Below, in pieces: positions 9,365 through 59,484 of a stretch of DNA of 64,000 bases. The notes below the pieces were generated by a model. That model saw nothing but the letters and a program-made list of their open reading frames with translations, searched no databases and was not told the DNA's origin. How positions within the stretch are numbered: the stretch's first letter is position 1; each line of letters starts with the position of its first letter. Both the position numbers and the translations under genes were made by a program. The stretch is taken from positions 558,001-622,000 of the forward strand of contig NZ_CAADFC020000028.1 of NCBI RefSeq assembly GCF_900696085.1. Direction: 5' to 3'. This DNA comes from Bradyrhizobium ivorense. GTDB lineage: Bacteria; Pseudomonadota; Alphaproteobacteria; Rhizobiales; Xanthobacteraceae.

Positions 9365-9907
9365 TCAGTTGCGGGAGGCCTGCTTCAACAGTTTCGGACT
9401 GACGAACAGCACGAGCTTGCCGCGCCGGAACGACACCTCATTCCAGTCGTCGATCGCAAAGTCGAAGATGGCGAGCCCCGAGGTCGGCAGATTGTGGCTG
9501 AGCGCGCGCTTCGCCGCCTCGTCGCCGCTGCCGGTCAGGGTCAGCGCCAGCTCGTGCATGCCGGGATTATGCCCGATCAGCATCAGCCGCTTTGGATCGG
9601 TGACCGAGGCCATCCGGATCGTGGTCAGCAACAGCGTCGGATCGGCGCCATAGAGCTCCGGCACGAATTCGACCTTCGGCGCCGGTCCAGCCTCCTTGAT
9701 CGCGTCGCGCACGATGTCCCAGGTCTGGGTGGTGCGGACCGCCGGCGACACCAGCGCCCGGTTGGGAAACGGCGGATGGTCGGCGAGCCAGCCGCCGATT
9801 TCCGCGGCGTCGCGGTGGCCGCGCTCGTCGAGCCGACGGTCCTGGTCGTGCCCCGAAGGCGAATCGGTTTCGGTCTTGGCATGACGCAGCAGCAGCAAAC
9901 GGCGCAT
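9365..9907 (-). CDS. SixA-like histidine phosphatase
   Basis: The N-terminus MRRLLLLRHAKTE carries the RH(A/G) catalytic motif of the histidine-phosphatase superfamily. The second conserved histidine is in LIGHNPGMHEL (about residue 113), and the conserved arginine is in SPAVRTTQT. At 180 residues it has the compact size of SixA, which dephosphorylates phosphohistidine on phosphotransfer domains. The true target is unknown. It starts 95 bases from the divergent FAD oxidoreductase gene. Confidence 0.85.
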   Translation of the reverse strand: MRRLLLLRHAKTETDSPSGHDQDRRLDERGHRDAAEIGGWLADHPPFPNRALVSPAVRTTQTWDIVRDAIKEAGPAPKVEFVPELYGADPTLLLTTIRMASVTDPKRLMLIGHNPGMHELALTLTGSGDEAAKRALSHNLPTSGLAIFDFAIDDWNEVSFRRGKLVLFVSPKLLKQASRN

Positions 9908-18503: not shown

Positions 18504-18519
18504 TTAACGCTTGGTGAAC
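18504..18519. promoter_or_regulatory. CtrA-box-like site between flbT and flagellin
   Basis: TTAA-CGCTTGG-TGAAC fits the CtrA consensus TTAA-N7-TTAAC except for one base. It lies in the 368-base divergent gap (18381-18748), in which I found no gene and no GG-N10-GC sigma-54 promoter. Its role is uncertain. Confidence 0.35.
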
Positions 18520-18748
18520 GAAGCGCACCCGCAGCCGGTGGCGCTGCGCGGAAAGTATCAGTCGCCTCAGTAGTTTTCGGGACGAAGCTCGTCCTGTCGC
18601 GGCAATTTTATTCTTCTGCATTTGTCTCAAATGCCGTTGCGGAGATTTTGTTTTCCTTCGCGGCTGCCCGCCACGATCGGAACACCCGCCCGATCAGAAA
18701 GGATTGGAGCGGCTTTTTCCCTCAGTTTCACACCAGAAAGGTATGAAA

Positions 18749-40882: not shown

Positions 40883-41010
40883 CTTGAAATATGGCTTTAC
40901 TTCAATGTGTTAGGTCTCCGTCCGGGCCCGGCGCGGGGCGGCAGAAAGGTCTTGTTGACCATGTTTGCCCGGCAGTTTTTTCCTAGTCGAAGCTAAATCC
41001 TAAGCTTCCG

Positions 41011-41024
41011 TTAACCATTGTTAC
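41011..41024 (+). promoter_or_regulatory. CtrA-like half-site upstream of fliL
   Basis: TTAACC-ATTG-TTAC has TTAA-N6-TTAC spacing, one base short of a full CtrA box. It lies 112 bases before fliL, whose Caulobacter counterpart fliLM is a CtrA target. The match is imperfect. Confidence 0.35.
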
Positions 41025-41135: not shown

Positions 41136-41624
41136 ATGGCGGACGAGGACAAGACGGAAGGCGGCGAGGGCGCGGCCGCTCCGAAGAAGGGCAAGCTCAA
41201 GCTGATCATTGCCGTCGTCGGCTTCCTCGTCGTGGTCGGCGGGGGCGCTGCGGGCTGGTTCTTCTTCATGCGCGGCCACGGCGAGGAGCAGCACGCCGAA
41301 GCGCCGCCGCCGAAGCCGCCGTCCTTCGTCGACGTGCCGGACATGCTGGTCAACCTGGTCGGCGCCCCCGGCGAGCGCGTGCAGTATCTGAAGCTGAAGC
41401 TGGTGCTCGAGGTCAAGGAGGAGAAGCAGGTCGAGGCGATCAAGCCGGCGCTGCCGCGCGTCACCGACCTGTTCCAGACCTATATGCGCGAGCTGCGCCC
41501 GAGCGACCTCAACGGCTCCGCCGGCCTGTTCCGTCTCAAGGAAGAGCTGACCAAGCGCGTCAATCTGGCGCTGGCGCCCAACCAGGTGAACGCGGTGCTG
41601 TTCAAGGAAGTCGTGATCCAGTGA
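41136..41624 (+). CDS. fliL: Flagellar basal body-associated protein FliL
   Basis: FliL (162 residues) surrounds the stator around the basal body. It has a basic cytoplasmic start (APKKGKLKL), one transmembrane helix (about 22-46) and a periplasmic SPFH-like domain (FVDVPDMLVNLVG, RVQYLKLKLVLEV, then DLFQTYMRELRPSDLNGSAG). It precedes fliM by 18 bases. Confidence 0.93.
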   Translation: MADEDKTEGGEGAAAPKKGKLKLIIAVVGFLVVVGGGAAGWFFFMRGHGEEQHAEAPPPKPPSFVDVPDMLVNLVGAPGERVQYLKLKLVLEVKEEKQVEAIKPALPRVTDLFQTYMRELRPSDLNGSAGLFRLKEELTKRVNLALAPNQVNAVLFKEVVIQ

Positions 41625-41642: not shown

Positions 41643-42845
41643 ATGGCCGGCAACGACCAGATGGACCAGGACGCCATTGCCGCGCAGTGGGAGGCCTCGC
41701 TCGATTCCGAGGATCCGGCCGCCGCCGCCGCGGAGGCCGCCAAGAACGAACTCACCGAGAGCATGGCGCTGCAATGGGCCGCCATGGTCGAGGACGGCAG
41801 CCGCGACTTCGGCGGCAAGAACAACAATGGCGAGCGCGTGCTGTCGCAGGAGGAGATCGACAATCTCCTCGGCTTCACCGTCGGCGATGTCAGCCTCGAC
41901 GATCACTCCGGCATCCGCGCCATCATCGATTCCGCGATGGTGTCCTACGAGCGTCTGCCGATGCTCGAAATCGTGTTCGACCGCCTGGTGCGGTTGATGA
42001 CCACGAGCCTGCGCAACTTCACCTCCGACAACGTCGAAGTCTCGCTCGACCGCATCACCTCGGTGCGGTTCGGCGACTACATGAACTCGATCCCGCTGCC
42101 GGCGGTGCTGTCGGTGTTCAAGGCGGAGGAGTGGGAGAACTTTGGCCTCGCCACCGTCGACTCCAGCCTGATCTATTCGATGATCGACGTGCTGCTCGGC
42201 GGCCGCCGTGGCCAGACCCAGCTGCGGATCGAGGGCCGGCCCTACACCACGATCGAGACCAATCTCGTCAAGCGGCTAGTCGAGGTGGTGCTGGCCGACG
42301 CCGAGCAGGCGTTTCGCCCGCTGTCGCAGGTGACGTTCTCGATCGACCGGCTGGAGACCAACCCGCGCTTCGCCGCGATCAGCCGCCCCGCCAATGCCGC
42401 GATCCTGGTGCGGCTGCGTATCGACATGGAAGACCGCGGCGGCAATGTCGAATTGCTGCTGCCTTATGCGACCATCGAACCGATCCGCAACGTGCTGTTG
42501 CAGATGTTCATGGGCGAAAAATTCGGCCGCGACCCGATCTGGGAAGGCCATTTCGCCACCGAGGTGGCGCAGGCCGAAATCGCGGTCGACGCCGTGCTCT
42601 ACGAGGCCGACATTCCGCTCAAGGAACTGATGAAGCTGAAGGTCGGCGACACCCTGCCGCTCGACATCCGTTCCGACGCGCTGGTCTCGGTGCGCTGCGG
42701 CAACGTCACCCTGACCGAGGGGCGGATGGGCCGCGTCGGCGACCGCGTCGCGATCCGCGTCACCAAGAATTTGCGTAAACCCCAAACCACCTTCGCAATG
42801 TTCGAGCAGGCGGACGAGCGGACCAAAATGATGGAGGCACCATGA
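41643..42845 (+). CDS. fliM: Flagellar motor switch protein FliM
   Basis: FliM is the C-ring switch protein. The CheY-P-binding motif LSQEEIDNLLGF starts near residue 68 rather than at the extreme N-terminus. Before it lies a 67-residue extension with two related pieces, AAQWEASLDSED and ALQWAAMVEDG, which looks like an internal duplication. The core (SYERLPMLEIVFDRL, YTTIETNLVKRLVEVVLADAE) and the C-terminal SpoA part (DTLPLDIRSDALVSVRCGNV) are complete. The next gene overlaps it by four bases. Confidence 0.94.
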   Translation: MAGNDQMDQDAIAAQWEASLDSEDPAAAAAEAAKNELTESMALQWAAMVEDGSRDFGGKNNNGERVLSQEEIDNLLGFTVGDVSLDDHSGIRAIIDSAMVSYERLPMLEIVFDRLVRLMTTSLRNFTSDNVEVSLDRITSVRFGDYMNSIPLPAVLSVFKAEEWENFGLATVDSSLIYSMIDVLLGGRRGQTQLRIEGRPYTTIETNLVKRLVEVVLADAEQAFRPLSQVTFSIDRLETNPRFAAISRPANAAILVRLRIDMEDRGGNVELLLPYATIEPIRNVLLQMFMGEKFGRDPIWEGHFATEVAQAEIAVDAVLYEADIPLKELMKLKVGDTLPLDIRSDALVSVRCGNVTLTEGRMGRVGDRVAIRVTKNLRKPQTTFAMFEQADERTKMMEAP

Positions 42846-43312
42846 GTCATGTGCTTGGATTAGCAATCGAGAGTCTGGTGGCCGTGTTGCTGATGCTGAC
42901 GATCGGCTATTGCTGGCTGCTCAACAAGCGCCTGCAGCGGCTGAAGGCGGACGAGCATTCGCTGAAGGCGACGATCGCGGAGCTGATCACCGCAACCGAG
43001 ATCGCCGAGCGCGCGATCGGCGGGCTGAAGCACGCCGTGCGCGACGTCAACGAGAACCTCGGCAACCAGCTCGACGCGGCGACGCAAATGTCGGCGCTGC
43101 TGCGCAACCAGCTCGCCGAGGGCGACAATGTGGTGCGCCGCCTGTCCAAGATCGCGCAAGCGGCACGGCCCGCGGACCCCGCGCCGGCATCAGCGCCTGC
43201 GCCGGTCGCCGCACCGGCGGTCGCGGCGCCCAGGCTCTCGGCGGCGCGCGCGGTTGCTGCCGCGGCTGAAGCCTTCACCGAGCGCAGGAGGGCCGGCGGC
43301 CTCGCTGCATGA
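42842..43312 (+). CDS. DUF6468 protein of the fliM-motE unit
   Basis: The 156-residue product has an N-terminal transmembrane helix (VLGLAIESLVAVLLMLTIGY) and a coiled coil (about 30-110), then an Ala/Pro-rich tail. This matches DUF6468, which follows fliM in rhizobial flagellar clusters. It overlaps fliM and motE by four bases each (ATGA), so all three are coupled. A membrane-bound helper of motor or stator assembly is likely; the exact role is unknown. Confidence 0.8.
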   Translation: MSHVLGLAIESLVAVLLMLTIGYCWLLNKRLQRLKADEHSLKATIAELITATEIAERAIGGLKHAVRDVNENLGNQLDAATQMSALLRNQLAEGDNVVRRLSKIAQAARPADPAPASAPAPVAAPAVAAPRLSAARAVAAAAEAFTERRRAGGLAA

Positions 43313-44121
43313 AGTCGTTTCGTGACATCAGAGTGATGCCTGTGGTGCTGGTCGCTGTCTTCGGCCTGATGGTGCTGAAGATCGCCGGCCTCGTGCTCGA
43401 TGGCGGCTACGTGTTTGCCGACGATGCCCGGCCGGCCGGGCCCGCCCAGCCATCCTGGGCGCAGCAGAACTTCAACTTCCCTGGCGCCGGCAGGGTCGCT
43501 GCCGATAGCAAGTTCAAGGGCGATCCCGCCGACATCACCGGGTCGGTCGAGAAAAAGGAAGCGAAGAAGGAGGAGGCGCCGCAGCCGGCTGCGCCGGCCG
43601 CCGAGCCGCCCAAGCCCGACGGTGTCGTGGTCAACCTGAACCAGCCGCCGCCGGTGTCGGCATCCGAACGCGCGATCCTGGAACGGCTGCAGGCGCGCCG
43701 CCAGGAGCTCGAGCAGCGTGCCCGCGAAGTCGATATCCGCGAGGGCCTGCTGAAGGCCGCCGAGAAGCGCATCGAGGCCAAGGTCGAGGAGGCCAAGGCC
43801 AACGACGCCAAGGCGAGTGCCGAGGCGGCGGAAAAGGCCGCGGCCGAGGCCGCGCGCTTCAAGGGCATCGTCACCATGTACGAGAACATGAAGCCGAAGG
43901 ACGCCGCAAAGGTGTTCGACCGGCTGGAAATGAACGTGCTCTACCAGATCGCCTCGCAGATCCAGCCGCGCAAGATGTCCGACATCCTCGGCCTGATGCA
44001 GCCCGAGGCCGCCGAACGCCTCACCGTCGAACTCGCCCGCAGAGCCAGCGGCGACAAGTCGGCCTCGACGGAAGAACTCCCGAAGATCGAAGGCAAGATG
44101 CTGGCGCCGAAGACCAATTGA
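43309..44121 (+). CDS. motE: MotE-family stator chaperone
   Basis: In Sinorhizobium, MotE is the periplasmic chaperone of MotC. This 270-residue protein has a signal anchor (VVLVAVFGLMVLKIAGLVL), a Pro/Lys-rich segment, a coiled coil (about 120-185) and a C-terminal MgtE-N-like helical domain (KGIVTMYENMKPKDAAKVF, RKMSDILGLMQPEAAERL). It ends the fliL-fliM unit; its stop is 10 bases from the truncated antitoxin gene on the other strand. Confidence 0.88.
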   Translation: MKSFRDIRVMPVVLVAVFGLMVLKIAGLVLDGGYVFADDARPAGPAQPSWAQQNFNFPGAGRVAADSKFKGDPADITGSVEKKEAKKEEAPQPAAPAAEPPKPDGVVVNLNQPPPVSASERAILERLQARRQELEQRAREVDIREGLLKAAEKRIEAKVEEAKANDAKASAEAAEKAAAEAARFKGIVTMYENMKPKDAAKVFDRLEMNVLYQIASQIQPRKMSDILGLMQPEAAERLTVELARRASGDKSASTEELPKIEGKMLAPKTN

Positions 44122-44131
44122 GGGGGCGGCG

Positions 44132-44341
44132 TCAGCAGCGATCCTTGCTGCTGCCACGTCCACGTCCGGAGGCTATGCCTCGGGCTCGGATTACATCACT
44201 GATCGCTGTTGCAATGAAAGATGGATCGTTCTCGGTCAGCGCCGCTTCGAGGTAAGCGGCCTGCTGTTCAAGCGTGTTGAGATGATCCTGAATGTCGAAT
44301 TTGGTCGTCTTGAGTGCCATGGGTCGCTCGCTGGACGTCAT
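44132..44341 (-). pseudogene. Truncated addiction-module antidote gene
   Basis: MALKTTKFDIQDHL, then EQQAAYLEAALTENDPSFI and ATAISDVIRARGI match the N-terminal part of HigA2-like antidote proteins, which should continue for another 40-50 residues with a DNA-binding helix-turn-helix. Instead the frame ends with unrelated residues (ASGRGRGSSKDRC) at a stop 10 bases from motE. No toxin gene is near. The ATG at 44341 overlaps the stop of the preceding HicB-like gene (ATGA); MALKTTKF begins at 44320. Confidence 0.7.
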
Positions 44342-44607
44342 TCGCCGAGCGCTTGCATCGGTATGTCTACGCTACAGACGCTGTCCCGGTTCTCGATACA
44401 GGCCATGATTGCGTCGAGAGAAGAGGGCTCAGGTATCGCTTCACCGTCTTCGGCCAATCCTTTGAGATGAAGAGCCACAGCTTCAGCCGCCATCGCACGG
44501 GCGTCGTCCATGTCGGTCCCCGCGGTGATTACGCCGGGTAGGTCGGGAAATGAGACCCCGAAGTCGCTGTCGGGATCCTTATGGATCAGCGCGATGTAAT
44601 GCCGCAT
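44338..44607 (-). pseudogene. HicB-like antitoxin, C-terminally truncated
   Basis: MRHYIALIHKDPDSDFGVSF, PDLPGVITAGTDMDDARAMA and EPSSLDAIMA are the RNase-H-like HicB antitoxin domain. A complete HicB has 130 or more residues with a C-terminal ribbon-helix-helix or HTH; this one stops at 89. The hicA toxin gene, normally next to it, is absent. It may still be expressed as an orphan, or be decaying together with the following antidote fragment. Confidence 0.7.
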
Positions 44608-44709
44608 TGGAAATTCCCGTCAGTGGCCGCCGTTTCGGCTGGCCTGGCTCGCCCATCGGCCTCAAGCGCCTTGATAATGCTTGCCTGCGGCGTTCGCAAT
44701 CCGTTGACG

Positions 44710-44725
44710 TTAACAGCTCCTTAAC
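44710..44725 (+). promoter_or_regulatory. Perfect CtrA box upstream of the TPR protein gene
   Basis: TTAA-CAGCTCC-TTAAC matches the full CtrA consensus TTAA-N7-TTAAC. It lies 52 bases before the ATG at 44777 and about 100 bases from the divergent HicB-like gene. A further TTAA occurs at about 44751. Confidence 0.7.
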
Positions 44726-44776
44726 GCCGCCAATCCAAGATCGGGACGCGTTAAGCGAGGGCGCTGCGCGTTTGGT

Positions 44777-47700
44777 ATGGCTGAGGTCCCGAGAAGACGT
44801 TTCGAGATGGCGCGAACGGCTGCCGCTGGAACATGGTCGCTAGGCCGCGCCTTTACGCGGGCTGCGCGTCTGTGCCTGCTTGTCAGCGGCCTTGCGCTCA
44901 CAGCCGGCACATACCCGACTGACATACGCGCCCAGGACACCCTTTCGCCGGTGCCGGGTGAGGCCACATTCTCCGCGGCGAATGGCTATGCCCGGCTGGT
45001 GCTGAAACTGAAGGAGGACGTCGAGTCGGAGGTGATGACCGCCGGCTCGATCATCCTGATCCGCTTCAAGCGCCCGGTCGATATCCAGGTCGAGAAACTG
45101 GGCGATGCGGTGCCCGACTATGTCGGCGCGGCGCGGCGCGATCCCGATGGTACGGCGATCCGCCTGTCACTGGCGCGCCGCGTCACCGTCAACACCATGA
45201 CCGCGGCCGAGCGCATTTTCGTCGACTTCCTGCCCGACGGCTGGACCGGCCCGCCGCCGCCGCTGCCGCAGGAGGTGGTGCGCGAGCTGGCCGAGCGCGC
45301 CCGCGCCGCCGAGCGGTTGCTGCGCGCGCAGCGCGCCGCCGATGCCGCGAAGAAGAAGCCGCCGATGCGGGTCCGCGCGCTGGTGCAGCCGACTTTCGTA
45401 CGCTTCGTGTTCGAGGTGCCCGACGGCGTCGGCGTCTCCTCGGTGCTGAACGAGCAGAAGCTGACGCTGTCCTTCAACACGGTGCTGAGCTTCGACCTTG
45501 CGGATGCCAAGGTCGCGGCGCCGCCGAACGTCGCATCGATCAGCGCGCGCGCCGATGCCGATACGTCGGCGGTCGACATGACGCTGATCGGCGATGCCGA
45601 CGTGCATTCGTTCCGCGATGAGAAGAACTACATCGTCGACGTCGCGATCCAGCAGAACGAGCAGCAGTCGACGACGAAGGGCGCAATCAGTTCGCTGATG
45701 CCGATGCCGCGCGGCAAGCAAAAGGGCATGCCGGCCGCGGCCGTGCCCGTCACATCGGAGAATATTGCGCGCGAGGCCAAGATCGAGATCAAGCCCGAGC
45801 CGGCGAAAGCGGAGCCGCAATCCGAGGCCGCCAAGCCTGAACTCGCAAAGCCTGAACCCGCAAAGCCCGAGCAGGGCAGCGCTGAGCCGCCGACAGCCGC
45901 GCCGTCTAAATCGGAGCAACCCAAATCGGAGCAACCAAGGTCGGAGCTGCCGAAGATGGCAGCCGCACCTGCAGAAAAGGCGCCGGCCGCCGAAAGCGTC
46001 CCGATGCCGGCGGCGCCGCGCGAAGGCAGCGCTGGGACAGCGGTGGAGGAGACCAAGGCGGCTGTCAGCGAGACGATGAAGCCTCCGTCGCCTGTCGCGG
46101 AGGCGCCGGCGATGGCGCAGCCGAAGCCTGCCGCGGCGCCATCGCCGCCGGCCGAGGTTCGCGCCGCCGCCAAGTCCGCGGTCGAAGCCCAGCGCGACAG
46201 CGACGGGTTGCGCGTGACCTTCGCATTTCCAGCGGCGACGCCGTCCGCATTGTTCCGCCGCGCCGACACGGTGTGGATGGTGTTCGACACGCCTGATGCG
46301 ATCGACATCGAACCGATCCGCGCCAAGGCCGGCTCGCTGATCTCCGATGTCACCCGGATGGCGCTGGAGAAGGGCCAGGCGGTCCGCTTCCGCCTCAACC
46401 GGCCGCAGATGCCTGCGCTCGAGAGCGACGACCGCTCGCGCGGCATCAGCTGGACGCTGACCTTCGCCGACCGGGTGCAGAAGCCGCCGCTGCCGCTGAC
46501 CGTGGTCCGCAACATCAGCGAGCCGGCGCTCGCCAATGTCAGCGTGCCCTTGGCCAATCCCGGCGAACTGCACAAACTGGTCGATCCCGATGCCGGCGAC
46601 ACACTCTGGGTCGTCACCGCGCCGCCGCCGACCCGCGGCGTCATCAAGCGGCAGGATTTCGTCGAGCTGTCGCTCCTGGAATCGATCCACGGCGTCGTGG
46701 TCCATCCGAACGCCGACGACGTCAAGGCGGAGGTCGGCGCCGACAAGGTGATGCTGGGGCGGCCCGGCGGGCTGACGCTGTCATCGGCCGACGTCGCCGC
46801 CGAACGCGCCACCGCCGCGGTGAAGCCGCTGTTCGATACCGATGAGTGGCGCAAGAACCAATCGGAGAATTTCGTCAAGCGGCTCGACAGCCTGATTGCG
46901 GCTGCCGCGGCGGCCAATGCCGAGCAGCTCCCCGAGGCGCGGCGCGATCTCGCCGATTTCTACATGGCGCACGGCCTGTATGACGAAGCTCACGGCGTCA
47001 CCAATCTGATCCTGTCCGAAAGCAAGCGCGGCAGCGAGCTTGCCTCGGTCGTGATGATCCACGCGGTCGCCAGCATCCTGATCGGGCGCCCGGCGCAGGG
47101 CGTCAAGGATCTCGCCAATCCCGTGATCGGCAACGGCTATGATTCCCAATTGTGGAAGGGGCTCGCCTTCGCGCGCGAAGGCAGATGGGCGGAGGCGCGG
47201 GAGAAGTTCAAGAATTCCGAGTTCGCGGTGGCGACGCTGCCGCCCGACCTGCAGCGCATCATCACGATGGATTCGATGAAGGCCGCGCTCGAGGTCAAGG
47301 ACTATGCCGGCGCGGCGCGGCGCAAGAGCGACCTCGACGTGGTCGGCGTCCCCGCCGAGCTGAAGCCGGCGGTTGCCGTGTTGCGGGGACGGCTCGCCGA
47401 AGCGCTCGGCCAGGAGAAGGATGCGCTCGACGCCTACAAGTTCGCCGCGAATTCGGCCGATCGCCAGGCCGCGGCCGAAGGCAAGCTGCTCGAAACCCTG
47501 CTGCGGCAGAAGCGCGGCGAGATCGGCCGCGACGACGTGCTGAAGGAGCTCGAGCTGCTGTCGATGATGTGGCGTGGCGACTCCATCGAATTGAAGACGC
47601 TGTACGTGCTGTCGAAGATCTATGCCGAGACCGGCCGTTACGCCGACGCCTTCGCGGTGACCCGCGCGGCGACCCGCCTGCAGCCGAACGCGCCGGAATC

Positions 47701-48637
47701 GCGCCAGGCGCAGGATGCCGCCTCGGCGCTGTTCGTGCAGCTGTTCCTCGGCCCCAAGGGCGACGAGATGTCGCCGATCGATGCGCTCGGCACCTTCTAT
47801 GAATATCGCGAGCTGACCCCGATCGGCCGCCGCGGCGACGAGATGATCCGCCGGCTCTCCGACCGCCTGGTCGGCGTCGACCTGCTCGACCAGGCCGCCG
47901 ATCTCCTGCAGTACCAGGTCGACAAGCGGCTCGAGGGCGCGGCGCGCGCCCAGGTCGCGGCGCGGCTGGCGATGGTCTATCTGATGAACCGCAAGCCGGA
48001 CCGCGCCATCGCCGCGCTGCGCTCGACCCGGATCGCCGACCTCTCCGGCGAACTGCGACAGCAGCGGCTGCTGCTGGAAGCGCGGGCGCAGAGCGATGTC
48101 GGCCGGCACGACCTTGCGCTCGACATCATCTCCAACATCACCGGGCGCGAGGCGGTCCGCCTGCGCTCGGATATCTACTGGGCATCGCGACACTGGCGCG
48201 AGGCCTCCGAGCAGATCGAACTCTATTACGCCGACCGCTGGCGCGACTTCACTCCGCTCAATGCCGGCGAGAAGGCCGACGTCATCCGCGCCGTGGTCGG
48301 CTACGCGCTGGCCGAAGACACCATCGGACTGTCGCGGTTCCGCGAGAAATACGCGCCGCTGATGTCCGGCGATGCCGACAAGCTGGCATTCGACGCCGCC
48401 AGCAAGCCGGTGGCGACCTCAAGCGCCGAGTTCGCCCAGATCGCGCGGATGGCCGCCAGCGTCGATACGCTGGACGGCTTCATCCGCGAGATGAAGTCCC
48501 GCTTCGGCGACACCACCGCCCGCGCGCCGCTGGCCGATCCGGTCACGACCGGATCGCTGCCGGACCAGCCGAAGGTCGAGCCGGTGAGCGCGCTGCCCAC
48601 GATCAAGGGCGAGCGGCGCGCCAGCGCGTCACAGTAA
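44777..48637 (+). CDS. Very large periplasmic TPR-like protein of the flagellar cluster
   Basis: This 1286-residue protein has an N-terminal signal-like segment (RLCLLVSGLALTAGTYPTDI), two AMIN-like beta regions (about 55-110 and 475-560), a Pro/Glu/Ala/Lys-rich linker with KPEPAKPE and SEQPKSEQP repeats (about 345-470), and a long helical C-terminal half with TPR-like pairs (ARRDLADFYMAHGLYDEAHG, YVLSKIYAETGRYADAFAV). It matches no enzyme. The upstream CtrA box and position behind fliL-motE suggest a role in flagellar or polar assembly. The start ATG 44777 is used; ATG 44807 is possible. Confidence 0.8.
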   Translation: MAEVPRRRFEMARTAAAGTWSLGRAFTRAARLCLLVSGLALTAGTYPTDIRAQDTLSPVPGEATFSAANGYARLVLKLKEDVESEVMTAGSIILIRFKRPVDIQVEKLGDAVPDYVGAARRDPDGTAIRLSLARRVTVNTMTAAERIFVDFLPDGWTGPPPPLPQEVVRELAERARAAERLLRAQRAADAAKKKPPMRVRALVQPTFVRFVFEVPDGVGVSSVLNEQKLTLSFNTVLSFDLADAKVAAPPNVASISARADADTSAVDMTLIGDADVHSFRDEKNYIVDVAIQQNEQQSTTKGAISSLMPMPRGKQKGMPAAAVPVTSENIAREAKIEIKPEPAKAEPQSEAAKPELAKPEPAKPEQGSAEPPTAAPSKSEQPKSEQPRSELPKMAAAPAEKAPAAESVPMPAAPREGSAGTAVEETKAAVSETMKPPSPVAEAPAMAQPKPAAAPSPPAEVRAAAKSAVEAQRDSDGLRVTFAFPAATPSALFRRADTVWMVFDTPDAIDIEPIRAKAGSLISDVTRMALEKGQAVRFRLNRPQMPALESDDRSRGISWTLTFADRVQKPPLPLTVVRNISEPALANVSVPLANPGELHKLVDPDAGDTLWVVTAPPPTRGVIKRQDFVELSLLESIHGVVVHPNADDVKAEVGADKVMLGRPGGLTLSSADVAAERATAAVKPLFDTDEWRKNQSENFVKRLDSLIAAAAAANAEQLPEARRDLADFYMAHGLYDEAHGVTNLILSESKRGSELASVVMIHAVASILIGRPAQGVKDLANPVIGNGYDSQLWKGLAFAREGRWAEAREKFKNSEFAVATLPPDLQRIITMDSMKAALEVKDYAGAARRKSDLDVVGVPAELKPAVAVLRGRLAEALGQEKDALDAYKFAANSADRQAAAEGKLLETLLRQKRGEIGRDDVLKELELLSMMWRGDSIELKTLYVLSKIYAETGRYADAFAVTRAATRLQPNAPESRQAQDAASALFVQLFLGPKGDEMSPIDALGTFYEYRELTPIGRRGDEMIRRLSDRLVGVDLLDQAADLLQYQVDKRLEGAARAQVAARLAMVYLMNRKPDRAIAALRSTRIADLSGELRQQRLLLEARAQSDVGRHDLALDIISNITGREAVRLRSDIYWASRHWREASEQIELYYADRWRDFTPLNAGEKADVIRAVVGYALAEDTIGLSRFREKYAPLMSGDADKLAFDAASKPVATSSAEFAQIARMAASVDTLDGFIREMKSRFGDTTARAPLADPVTTGSLPDQPKVEPVSALPTIKGERRASASQ

Positions 48638-54630: not shown

Positions 54631-55284
54631 TCATTGGACGGGAGGATTGGCAGGCATTTGGTCCATGGCCGCCATCTTTCGAAGGATGCCTACCAGCCAA
54701 AGCAAGTCTTCGCTCTTGATCTCCGTACCAAGATCGCCATGGACGAGCTGATTGCGCTGGTCCGACAAAACCCTCATCCGATCGGCCTCAGCGGGGGTCA
54801 GCACGCCTTCTTGACCCAATACCTGCACCAAACGTGCTGGCGCTTGCGGCCGATCGAGTGTTTCCGCAAACGAAGCTCTTCCTTCTGCTTCGAACGTTGC
54901 CCACGCAAGCAGAAACGCCGCGCGCAAAGCGTTCAATTGCCCGAGTTGTTCGATCTCCTCAATCGCGCCGTCGATCGCCTGACGGGATTGCACGGGGACG
55001 GTCTTGCCTGACGATGTAGGTGCTACGAGTAGAACCTTGAGTTCCCACTCGCGTTGCTTGGCGAATCGCGCTGCGACCTCTTTCAGCTTCTCGCTTCCGG
55101 ATGACCTCGCTACCTCCAGGACGATCTTCTTGCCGTTGCCCGTTGCAACGGCATCCGGAACGTAGTCGCCGAGAAATTCAGGAACGAGGGGCGCGCGAGG
55201 CTGCACGAATACGTCATACCCTTCCGACTCAAGCCGCGTGATCTCGCGTTGTAGCACCTGGTCTTCAATCGCGGTGTTGCTCAT
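54631..55284 (-). CDS. Restriction-endonuclease-like / HEPN-like fusion protein
   Basis: The 217-residue product has a PD-(D/E)xK-like N-terminal domain (GDYVPDAVATGNGKKIVLEV, with Asp44 and Glu57; the lysine of E-x-K is Ala59). This resembles AHJR-type REase-like domains. The C-terminal half is all-helical (residues about 118-205: ALRAAFLLAWATFEAEGRA) and contains R177-NQLV-H182, the R-x4-H motif of HEPN ribonucleases. The ATG overlaps the stop of the RusA-like gene (ATGA), so both are translationally coupled. Such pairings suggest a toxin or defence function, which is not proven. Family assignment is from motif reading only. Confidence 0.6.
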   Translation of the reverse strand: MSNTAIEDQVLQREITRLESEGYDVFVQPRAPLVPEFLGDYVPDAVATGNGKKIVLEVARSSGSEKLKEVAARFAKQREWELKVLLVAPTSSGKTVPVQSRQAIDGAIEEIEQLGQLNALRAAFLLAWATFEAEGRASFAETLDRPQAPARLVQVLGQEGVLTPAEADRMRVLSDQRNQLVHGDLGTEIKSEDLLWLVGILRKMAAMDQMPANPPVQ

Positions 55285-57817: not shown

Positions 57818-57833
57818 TTAACCAGCCGTTAAC
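57818..57833 (+). promoter_or_regulatory. Perfect CtrA box upstream of flgB
   Basis: TTAA-CCAGCCG-TTAAC matches the full CtrA consensus. It lies 76 bases before flgB in the divergent fliO-flgB gap (57549-57908), which contains no gene. GGTTAACG at about 57732-57739 could be a further half-site for fliO. Confidence 0.75.
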
Positions 57834-59126: not shown

Positions 59127-59188
59127 CCGGGGCGCGCATCGAACCCGGAATCTCGAGGTTCCGGGTTCGATGCTTCGGATCGCCCCGG
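59127..59188. repeat. Palindromic repeat between fliE and fliQ
   Basis: GCATCGAACCCGGAA (59136-59150) and TTCCGGGTTCGATGC (59159-59173) form a perfect 15-bp stem with loop TCTCGAGG, extended by the outer CCGGGGCG/CGCCCCGG pair. It lies inside a flagellar operon, where a strong hairpin could reduce or stabilise read-through. Confidence 0.8.
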
Positions 59189-59220
59189 ACCGACAGTGCA
59201 AGACAACAGCGAGAACAACA

Positions 59221-59484
59221 ATGACCGGCCCTGAAACCCTCGACGTGGCGCGTGATGCGATCTGGACCATCGTGGTGGTGTCGTCGCCGCTGATGGTGGT
59301 CGGGCTCGTGGTCGGCGTCGTGGTGTCGCTGTTCCAGGCGCTGACCCAGATCCAGGAGCAGACCCTGATCTTCGTGCCGAAGATTCTGGCGATCTTCGTC
59401 ACATTATTGCTGGCGCTGCCGTTCATGGCGGACTCGCTGCACAGCCACATGATGCGGATTTCGTCGCGAATCATCGGCGGTTGA
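59221..59484 (+). CDS. fliQ: Flagellar export gate protein FliQ
   Basis: FliQ (87 residues) is a two-helix gate subunit. TLDVARDAIWTIVVVSSPLM, GLVVGVVVSLFQALTQIQEQ and TLIFVPKILAIFVTLLLALP are typical. The start ATG 59221 is chosen over an upstream in-frame ATG that lies in the repeat. Confidence 0.93.
   Translation: MTGPETLDVARDAIWTIVVVSSPLMVVGLVVGVVVSLFQALTQIQEQTLIFVPKILAIFVTLLLALPFMADSLHSHMMRISSRIIGG

Follow-up and report, generated by a model that had tools for sequence, protein, structure and literature searches.

An AMIN-TPR protein gene downstream of motE in Bradyrhizobium ivorense as a probable periplasmic stator scaffold of the polar-type flagellar motor

Introduction

MotK of Cereibacter sphaeroides, FssB (CC_2058) of Caulobacter crescentus and PflA of Campylobacter jejuni are the described proteins closest to the one treated here, a large predicted periplasmic protein with AMIN-like and TPR parts (the AMIN-TPR protein), encoded downstream of motE in a 64,000-nucleotide stretch of the Bradyrhizobium ivorense genome (RefSeq assembly GCF_900696085.1, contig NZ_CAADFC020000028.1, positions 558,001 to 622,000; this whole stretch is called the window). 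MotK, of the Fla2 system, is a periplasmic protein of 652 amino acids with one N-terminal AMIN domain, a linker and a TPR-like half, and is encoded in the run fliL-pflI-motE-motA-motK; the fla2 genes are under CtrA, with a CtrA site upstream of fliL2. According to the passages on MotK in PMC10954123, it binds MotE and MotB2, is required for rotation and is found at the flagellated pole in dependence on MotA2 and MotB2; MotE is unstable in its absence, and the neighbouring pflI is linked to flagellum placement. FssB is a TPR protein which is secreted and has an N-terminal AMIN-like fold (PMC10954123); its gene follows CC_2059 (the MotE/FlgY homologue). Deletion of fssB keeps the filaments and abolishes rotation (PMC7885107), so that loss of either MotK or FssB gives flagellated, non-rotating cells in these accounts (PMC10954123, PMC7885107). 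PflA has an AMIN-like sandwich, a linker and a TPR superhelix, forms the spoke between the centre of the motor and its stator ring and works with PflB; it is a structural spoke (PMC12222027) which is required for stator anchoring, and its loss leaves poorly anchored stators (PMC11870540, PMC12222027). MotC of the Sinorhizobium meliloti type is the periplasmic MotE partner of a lateral-type motor.

The Bradyrhizobium protein shares the layout of MotK, FssB and PflA and the motE neighbourhood of MotK and FssB, and departs from each of them. It is far larger than MotK, and unlike the MotK run its own run includes fliM, lacks motA, which lies elsewhere, and gives the gene a CtrA-type box of its own. 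FssB, compared by description, has its AMIN region at residues 36-132 and a gene of 2-3 kb, while PflA has one sandwich. MotC belongs to another flagellar system. We read the AMIN-TPR protein, with a probability of roughly 80%, as a part of the polar motor, located in the periplasm and anchored to the cell wall, which would hold or activate the torque-generating stators rather than build the flagellum. A first-pass annotation of the window had proposed an undescribed polar or flagellar assembly factor; the kind of protein is already known from MotK, FssB/CC_2058 and PflA. No paper naming the Bradyrhizobium gene was found in a literature search which did not extend to supplements and in which most hits were known by listing, and the word Bradyrhizobium is absent from the main text of PMC10954123, PMC13023049 and PMC11870540. 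Since PMC11870540 searched Alphaproteobacteria with CC_2058, the gene may be listed there. This work computed the gene family, its association with flagellar genes of the polar type, the arrangement of domains in the models and the conservation of the box.

Distribution of the family and its tie to polar-type flagellar genes

Within the order, the AMIN-TPR protein is present in 35 of 61 genomes. Thirty-five of the 36 genomes with a polar-type FliM and a DUF6468 protein (PF20072) carry it versus none of the 25 others (Fisher 3e-16, uncorrected for kinship; the polar-type FliM was split off by score, post hoc, and defines the same set as the genomes over the DUF6468 cut-off), and the sole polar-type FliM genome without it is 83% complete. 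The gene lies at most 5.5 kb from that of the DUF6468 protein in 29 of the 35 genomes and on a different contig in the other six.

In the class, DUF6468 and the AMIN-TPR protein are each found in 80 of 142 genomes, Caulobacter being among those with DUF6468, and 73 genomes have both; the protein is thus present in 73 of the 80 DUF6468 genomes. Sixty of the 79 DUF6468 genomes other than that of the window were retrieved (19 low-scoring or short ones were left out), and in 43 of these 60 class-wide loci the gene is present by profile downstream of motE. Eight of the other 17 loci are cut short and nine have enough downstream sequence and no such gene there; eight of these nine genomes have a family match elsewhere, which is weak in one of them (G131, 5e-9). 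Judged by the profile matches, the family is class-wide in Alphaproteobacteria and extends beyond Rhizobiales, the order named in the first-pass annotation. Synteny with flagellar genes elsewhere, which that annotation had set as a test, is borne out by the 43 class loci and by a set of 70 loci (69 from a scan of named genomes plus the own-genome locus L001), in 53 of which, the window included, the order fliL-fliM-DUF6468-motE-AMIN-TPR gene is complete. At the other 17 some genes are beyond the contig or the available stretch or were not found, and an altered order is seen at none of the 70.

The family contains long forms (open frames of 850-1433 codons) and short forms (548-831 amino acids), which are joined here by a sequence profile; the cited papers, in the parts available, report little or no sequence similarity among such proteins. 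Three plasmid-borne relatives illustrate the shorter forms: an 831 amino acid protein of Azospirillum lipoferum, whose gene is directly 5' of motA-motB (E 1e-69), a 548 amino acid protein of Erythrobacter aureus, encoded after fliL-fliM-DUF6468 and a motE-like gene (E 1.5e-83), and a 601 amino acid protein of Salipiger (Roseobacteraceae), encoded between flgF and flgE (E 6e-40). These E-values are set for 1000 sequences and come from a profile which includes class matches from an earlier profile; the controls MotC, MotB, FlgE, FliK and the motE-like protein gave no match to it. The present reading offers a likely job for a large protein whose named relatives on plasmids bear a hypothetical annotation.

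A MotB-like open reading frame (ORF) is found at most 0.7 kb upstream of the gene in 26 of the 43 class loci (by profiles, seven of the loci being profile seeds). In L116 CheY, CheZ and two MotB_plug proteins are encoded in the interval that follows motE, and single or paired MotB-like proteins occur in L136, L145, L142 and L113, several of them below the Pfam cut-off; the MotB-like protein of L137 had no Pfam match. Eleven of the 43 loci, among them L116 (5984-7395), L135 and L136, have two different MotB-like ORFs before the gene, and the first of the L116 pair is without an OmpA match in Pfam.

Domain layout and structure models

The gene and the parts of its product are as follows.

44807..48637, plus strand: gene of the predicted periplasmic AMIN-TPR protein from its conserved start (the first ATG of the ORF is at 44777)
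44951..45235, plus strand: AMIN-like sandwich 1, residues 59-153, from the model, with AmiC and PilQ-domain matches
45365..45646, plus strand: AMIN-like sandwich 2, residues 197-290, from the model, with a PilQ match
45659..46171, plus strand: Pro/Glu/Ala-rich linker, poorly conserved, predicted local distance difference test (pLDDT) mostly below 50
46178..46468, plus strand: third beta sandwich, residues 468-564, from the models, AMIN-like by pattern only
46838..48505, plus strand: TPR-type superhelix, residues 688-1243, from a TPR_2 match over the cut-off, the model and structure searches
47732..48088, plus strand: stretch with the highest conservation in the family, residues ~986-1104, from a 62-sequence class-wide alignment

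The N terminus is signal-like by eye. The predicted model of residues 53-690 has two confident sandwiches with a joining helix, a disordered linker and the third sandwich (pLDDT ~90 in the sandwiches; predicted template modelling score, pTM, 0.40), and that of residues 462-1264 has the sandwich followed by the superhelix (mean pLDDT 83.8, pTM 0.54). Sandwich 1 aligns with AmiC at Z 12.1 (root-mean-square deviation, rmsd, 3.5; 105 aligned; model residues 2-115) and with the PilQ domain at Z 9.7 (rmsd 2.6; 97 aligned), and sandwich 2 with PilQ at Z 10.4 (rmsd 2.3; 92 aligned; model residues 145-238), the first unrelated row of the N-terminal comparison standing at Z 7.8; the modelled N terminus may therefore be called AMIN-type. 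The third sandwich was reached by a loose 3jc8 match only (rmsd 22). The domain scan and models agree with the AMIN-like regions, Pro/Glu linker, TPR-like half and envelope-scaffold layout read earlier from the letters.

For the TPR half, the C-terminal superhelix is found both by domain match and in the model. Its top Foldseek match, at E 3.1e-11, is to a chain of 9HMF with 773 residues; the next match has 1.0e-7. The entry 9HMF is an alpha-carbon model, made by fitting AlphaFold models, of the periplasmic scaffold of Campylobacter (PMC12222027). The matched chain is probably PflA.

This identity we take from the chain length, set against the full length of PflA. In a PDB sequence search the TPR half gave 16 matches, which are designed TPRs, fusions holding them and kinesin light chain, and the N-terminal half gave none. 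The sole NCBIfam match, to the SctY chaperone, is weak (0.0023; 18.5 bits against a cut-off of 70) and was set aside as TPR noise.

The CtrA-type box and the start of the gene

Four elements of the window concern the putative promoters.

44710..44725, plus strand: CtrA-type box TTAA-N7-TTAAC, TTAACAGCTCCTTAAC, 82 nucleotides 5' of the conserved ATG of the AMIN-TPR gene
57818..57833, plus strand: second perfect CtrA-type box, 76 nucleotides 5' of flgB (57909)
41000..41014, plus strand: CtrA-like box with one mismatch, 5' of the fliL operon
44777..48637, plus strand: AMIN-TPR ORF from its first ATG, 1286 codons, 52 nucleotides after the box

TTAA-N7-TTAAC occurs in the 64 kb at two distinct places, 44710 (which can be read on the minus strand too) and 57818, with a mean count of 0.01 in shuffled 64-kb sequence. 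Each of the perfect boxes stands 5' of flagellar genes, flgB heading the run flgB-flgC-fliE-fliQ-fliR (FliQ, 59170-59484, was identified by eye). Further sites with one mismatch are found at 18504 and 23642. The perfect box placed by the first-pass annotation 52 nucleotides before the start is indeed there with respect to the first ATG. An ATG is found at the column of 44807 (Met11) in 25 of 27 aligned upstream regions, so that the protein probably has 1276 amino acids, counted from this second ATG, with the box 82 nucleotides upstream; the spacing then resembles that of flgB, provided 44807 is the start. The 27 regions were chosen for having the box, and their half-sites are invariant by construction; variation is seen in the flanks and in most of the N7, with few columns outside the half-sites common to at least 26 of the 27.

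An exact TTAA-N7-TTAA is present near the gene start in 53 of the 70 loci. The other 17 comprise six which begin inside the gene, L047 (boxed, with a broken ORF), nine from Devosia, Maritalea and the like, and L064 from Afipia. When the six loci whose contig starts inside the gene (L026, L033, L035, L048, L054 and L065) are omitted, with L047 scored as boxed and L067, also with a broken ORF, as without box, the box is kept in 54 of the 55 loci of the Bradyrhizobium/Xanthobacteraceae side which include upstream sequence, and in none of the nine Devosia-type loci is an exact box found near the gene start. An in-frame ATG follows a box by 65-82 nucleotides in 51 of the 55. Across 1.0 Mb of sequence these loci together contain just 76 exact boxes, so the conservation at gene starts is above chance, the 55 loci being kin and hence not 55 independent trials. 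On this evidence a conserved CtrA-type element at promoter distance, as the first-pass annotation would have it, is found, and the gene is a candidate member of the CtrA regulon.

The picture does not extend to the class. In the 43 class loci an exact box is near the gene start in one (1.1 expected) and a box with at most one mismatch in five (4.9 expected), and class-wide CtrA control was rejected as the boxes are no commoner than chance; to judge from these counts, the box is a Bradyrhizobium-side feature and not a trait of the whole protein family. The region around the fliL start (340 nucleotides) holds a CtrA-like box with at most one mismatch in 17 of the 43 class loci (L102-L158).

Proposed function and alternatives

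By analogy with the described systems, the AMIN-TPR protein is most likely a MotE-partner scaffold like PflA, MotK and FssB, with the tandem AMINs and the conserved CtrA-type box of its own as local features. The protein would be exported to the periplasm, where the N-terminal AMIN-type sandwiches would grip peptidoglycan and the TPR superhelix would connect the MotE ring that surrounds the motor with the stator units (MotA-MotB), a bridge that may recruit, retain or open the stators. The protein would be confined to the polar (subpolar) flagellum, and its gene would be transcribed from its own CtrA-type promoter, as the flgB operon. Loss of the protein should result in flagella which are built and do not turn, or turn weakly. 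Peptidoglycan binding, contacts with MotE and MotB, the role in rotation and control by CtrA are steps that we infer from MotK, FssB and PflA.

Several observations weigh against this reading. Seven of the 142 class genomes have the protein and no DUF6468 match, and seven show the reverse. No MotB-like ORF lies upstream in 17 of the 43 class loci, and in the genome of the window motA-motB are elsewhere. The shorter relatives of Erythrobacter (548 amino acids) and Salipiger (601) match the TPR half only, so peptidoglycan binding would not be general in the family. The Foldseek TM-score of the 9HMF match is low (0.24), and 9HMF is not among the 50 VIA-align matches listed for the TPR half, of which the top ones are generic TPRs; the match is therefore support and not proof. 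Likeness to MotK and CC_2058 is drawn from descriptions of these proteins, not from their sequences.

The role proposed by the first-pass annotation, a factor which helps to build the subpolar flagellum or to position it, would suit the flagellar neighbourhood, the CtrA-type box as at flgB, the envelope scaffold layout and the link of the neighbouring Cereibacter pflI to flagellum placement (PMC10954123, as above). We regard it as unlikely, since MotK and FssB, of the same layout and place, leave built, non-rotating flagella when lost and loss of PflA leaves poorly anchored stators, and since MotB-like or motAB genes adjoin the gene in many relatives. The instability of MotE without MotK in the same passages of PMC10954123 would also suit a periplasmic chaperone or stabiliser of MotE or of the stator proteins, with no structural part in the motor; MotK however sits at the flagellated pole in dependence on MotA2 and MotB2, and PflA is a structural spoke, which makes this explanation less probable still. 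Least probable, and by our estimate very improbable, is a general envelope protein, for example pilus or wall related, which happens to be encoded beside flagellar genes: AMIN and TPR parts are common and the best fold match at the N terminus is to PilQ, a pilus secretin, but the protein co-occurs with one flagellar type and the operon order is kept across the class.

The gene run and the gap after motE

The genes upstream of the AMIN-TPR gene are the following.

41136..41624, plus strand: fliL, by family match
41643..42845, plus strand: fliM, by family match
42842..43312, plus strand: DUF6468 protein (PF20072, 79.5 bits), between fliM and motE, presumably PflI by its position
43309..44121, plus strand: motE, named from its position and from below-cut-off matches to the FlbB collar protein and MgtE_N
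44122..44709, no strand: insert from motE to the box, with HicB-like (44338-44607, minus strand) and addiction-antidote-like (44132-44341, minus strand) ORFs

The AMIN-TPR gene thus adjoins motE in a flagellar operon, motE being named from weak matches and position. The first-pass annotation had the gene next to fliL-fliM-motE; the flagellar run stands, with the DUF6468 gene to be added between fliM and motE and 655 bp to be allowed from the end of motE (44121) to the first ATG. The HicB-like ORF of this insert is antitoxin-like. No motE was found within 8 kb at L013 and L015. The divergent flgF is located 5' of fliL at all 49 loci where flgF was found.

Among the 59 loci measured, the distance from motE to the gene varies between 45 bp and 7.2 kb and is 45-107 bp in 17, while the box stays close to the gene; the box may therefore keep the gene expressed where the gene run is split. 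The interval between motE and the box appears to be an insertion hot spot in Bradyrhizobium. Ten ORFs from five large gaps were scanned and include GT87 glycosyltransferases, an RTX/cadherin protein, a TPR protein, a phage-sheath-like protein, a beta-lactamase-family protein, a G8/CEMIP-type protein and an SGNH acyltransferase, one ORF having no match. The AMIN-TPR gene itself is interrupted or shortened in L013, L038, L047 and L067, perhaps by decay or by sequencing or assembly error; these four were excluded from the protein alignments and their ORFs left as they stand. Between the flagellar blocks of the window there is a REase_AHJR-like ORF (54631-55284, minus strand).

The second flagellar system

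FliM and MotB_plug are each matched twice in the genome of the window. In the second system a MotC-type gene (483 bits, cut-off 487) comes after MotB. MotC is present in nine of the 61 genomes of the order, and together with the AMIN-TPR protein only in that of the window and one congener. Kinship of the two proteins was rejected: the profile-profile probability is 1.8 with an alignment of eight MotC rows (nine loci minus L175, which has an internal stop), and no MotC model (PRK12798) is among the NCBIfam matches listed for the AMIN-TPR protein. One genome thus contains both kinds of MotE partner, each of which could be removed singly in the same cell. As a tentative extension, which we hold to be rather doubtful as a whole, one bacterium might drive two motors whose MotE partners are unrelated to each other, with a large, PflA-like tandem-AMIN spoke under CtrA control in the subpolar motor and MotC, together with a MotE of its own, in the lateral motor; the extra AMINs might fix the subpolar stators firmly in the wall so as to bear high load, and by analogy with FssB the subpolar motor could be the surface or load sensor.

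A genome search with the MotE of the window at E 1 returned the window copy only. As lateral MotE, L166 3851-4387 was rejected, being FlgA; the ORF at L166 1904-2683, between flgI and flgH, is a better though weak candidate (BLASTP E 0.006; MgtE_N 24.7 bits, below the cut-off of 25.9). The other MotA-MotB pair is found in L167, where a CtrA-like box with one mismatch (9487-9501) lies about 80 nucleotides 5' of the assumed motA start, 0.24 such sites being expected in the 17 kb. Two further one-mismatch sites, at 18722 and 18853, are found in L165, the stretch that contains the second flagellar cluster (0.12 expected).

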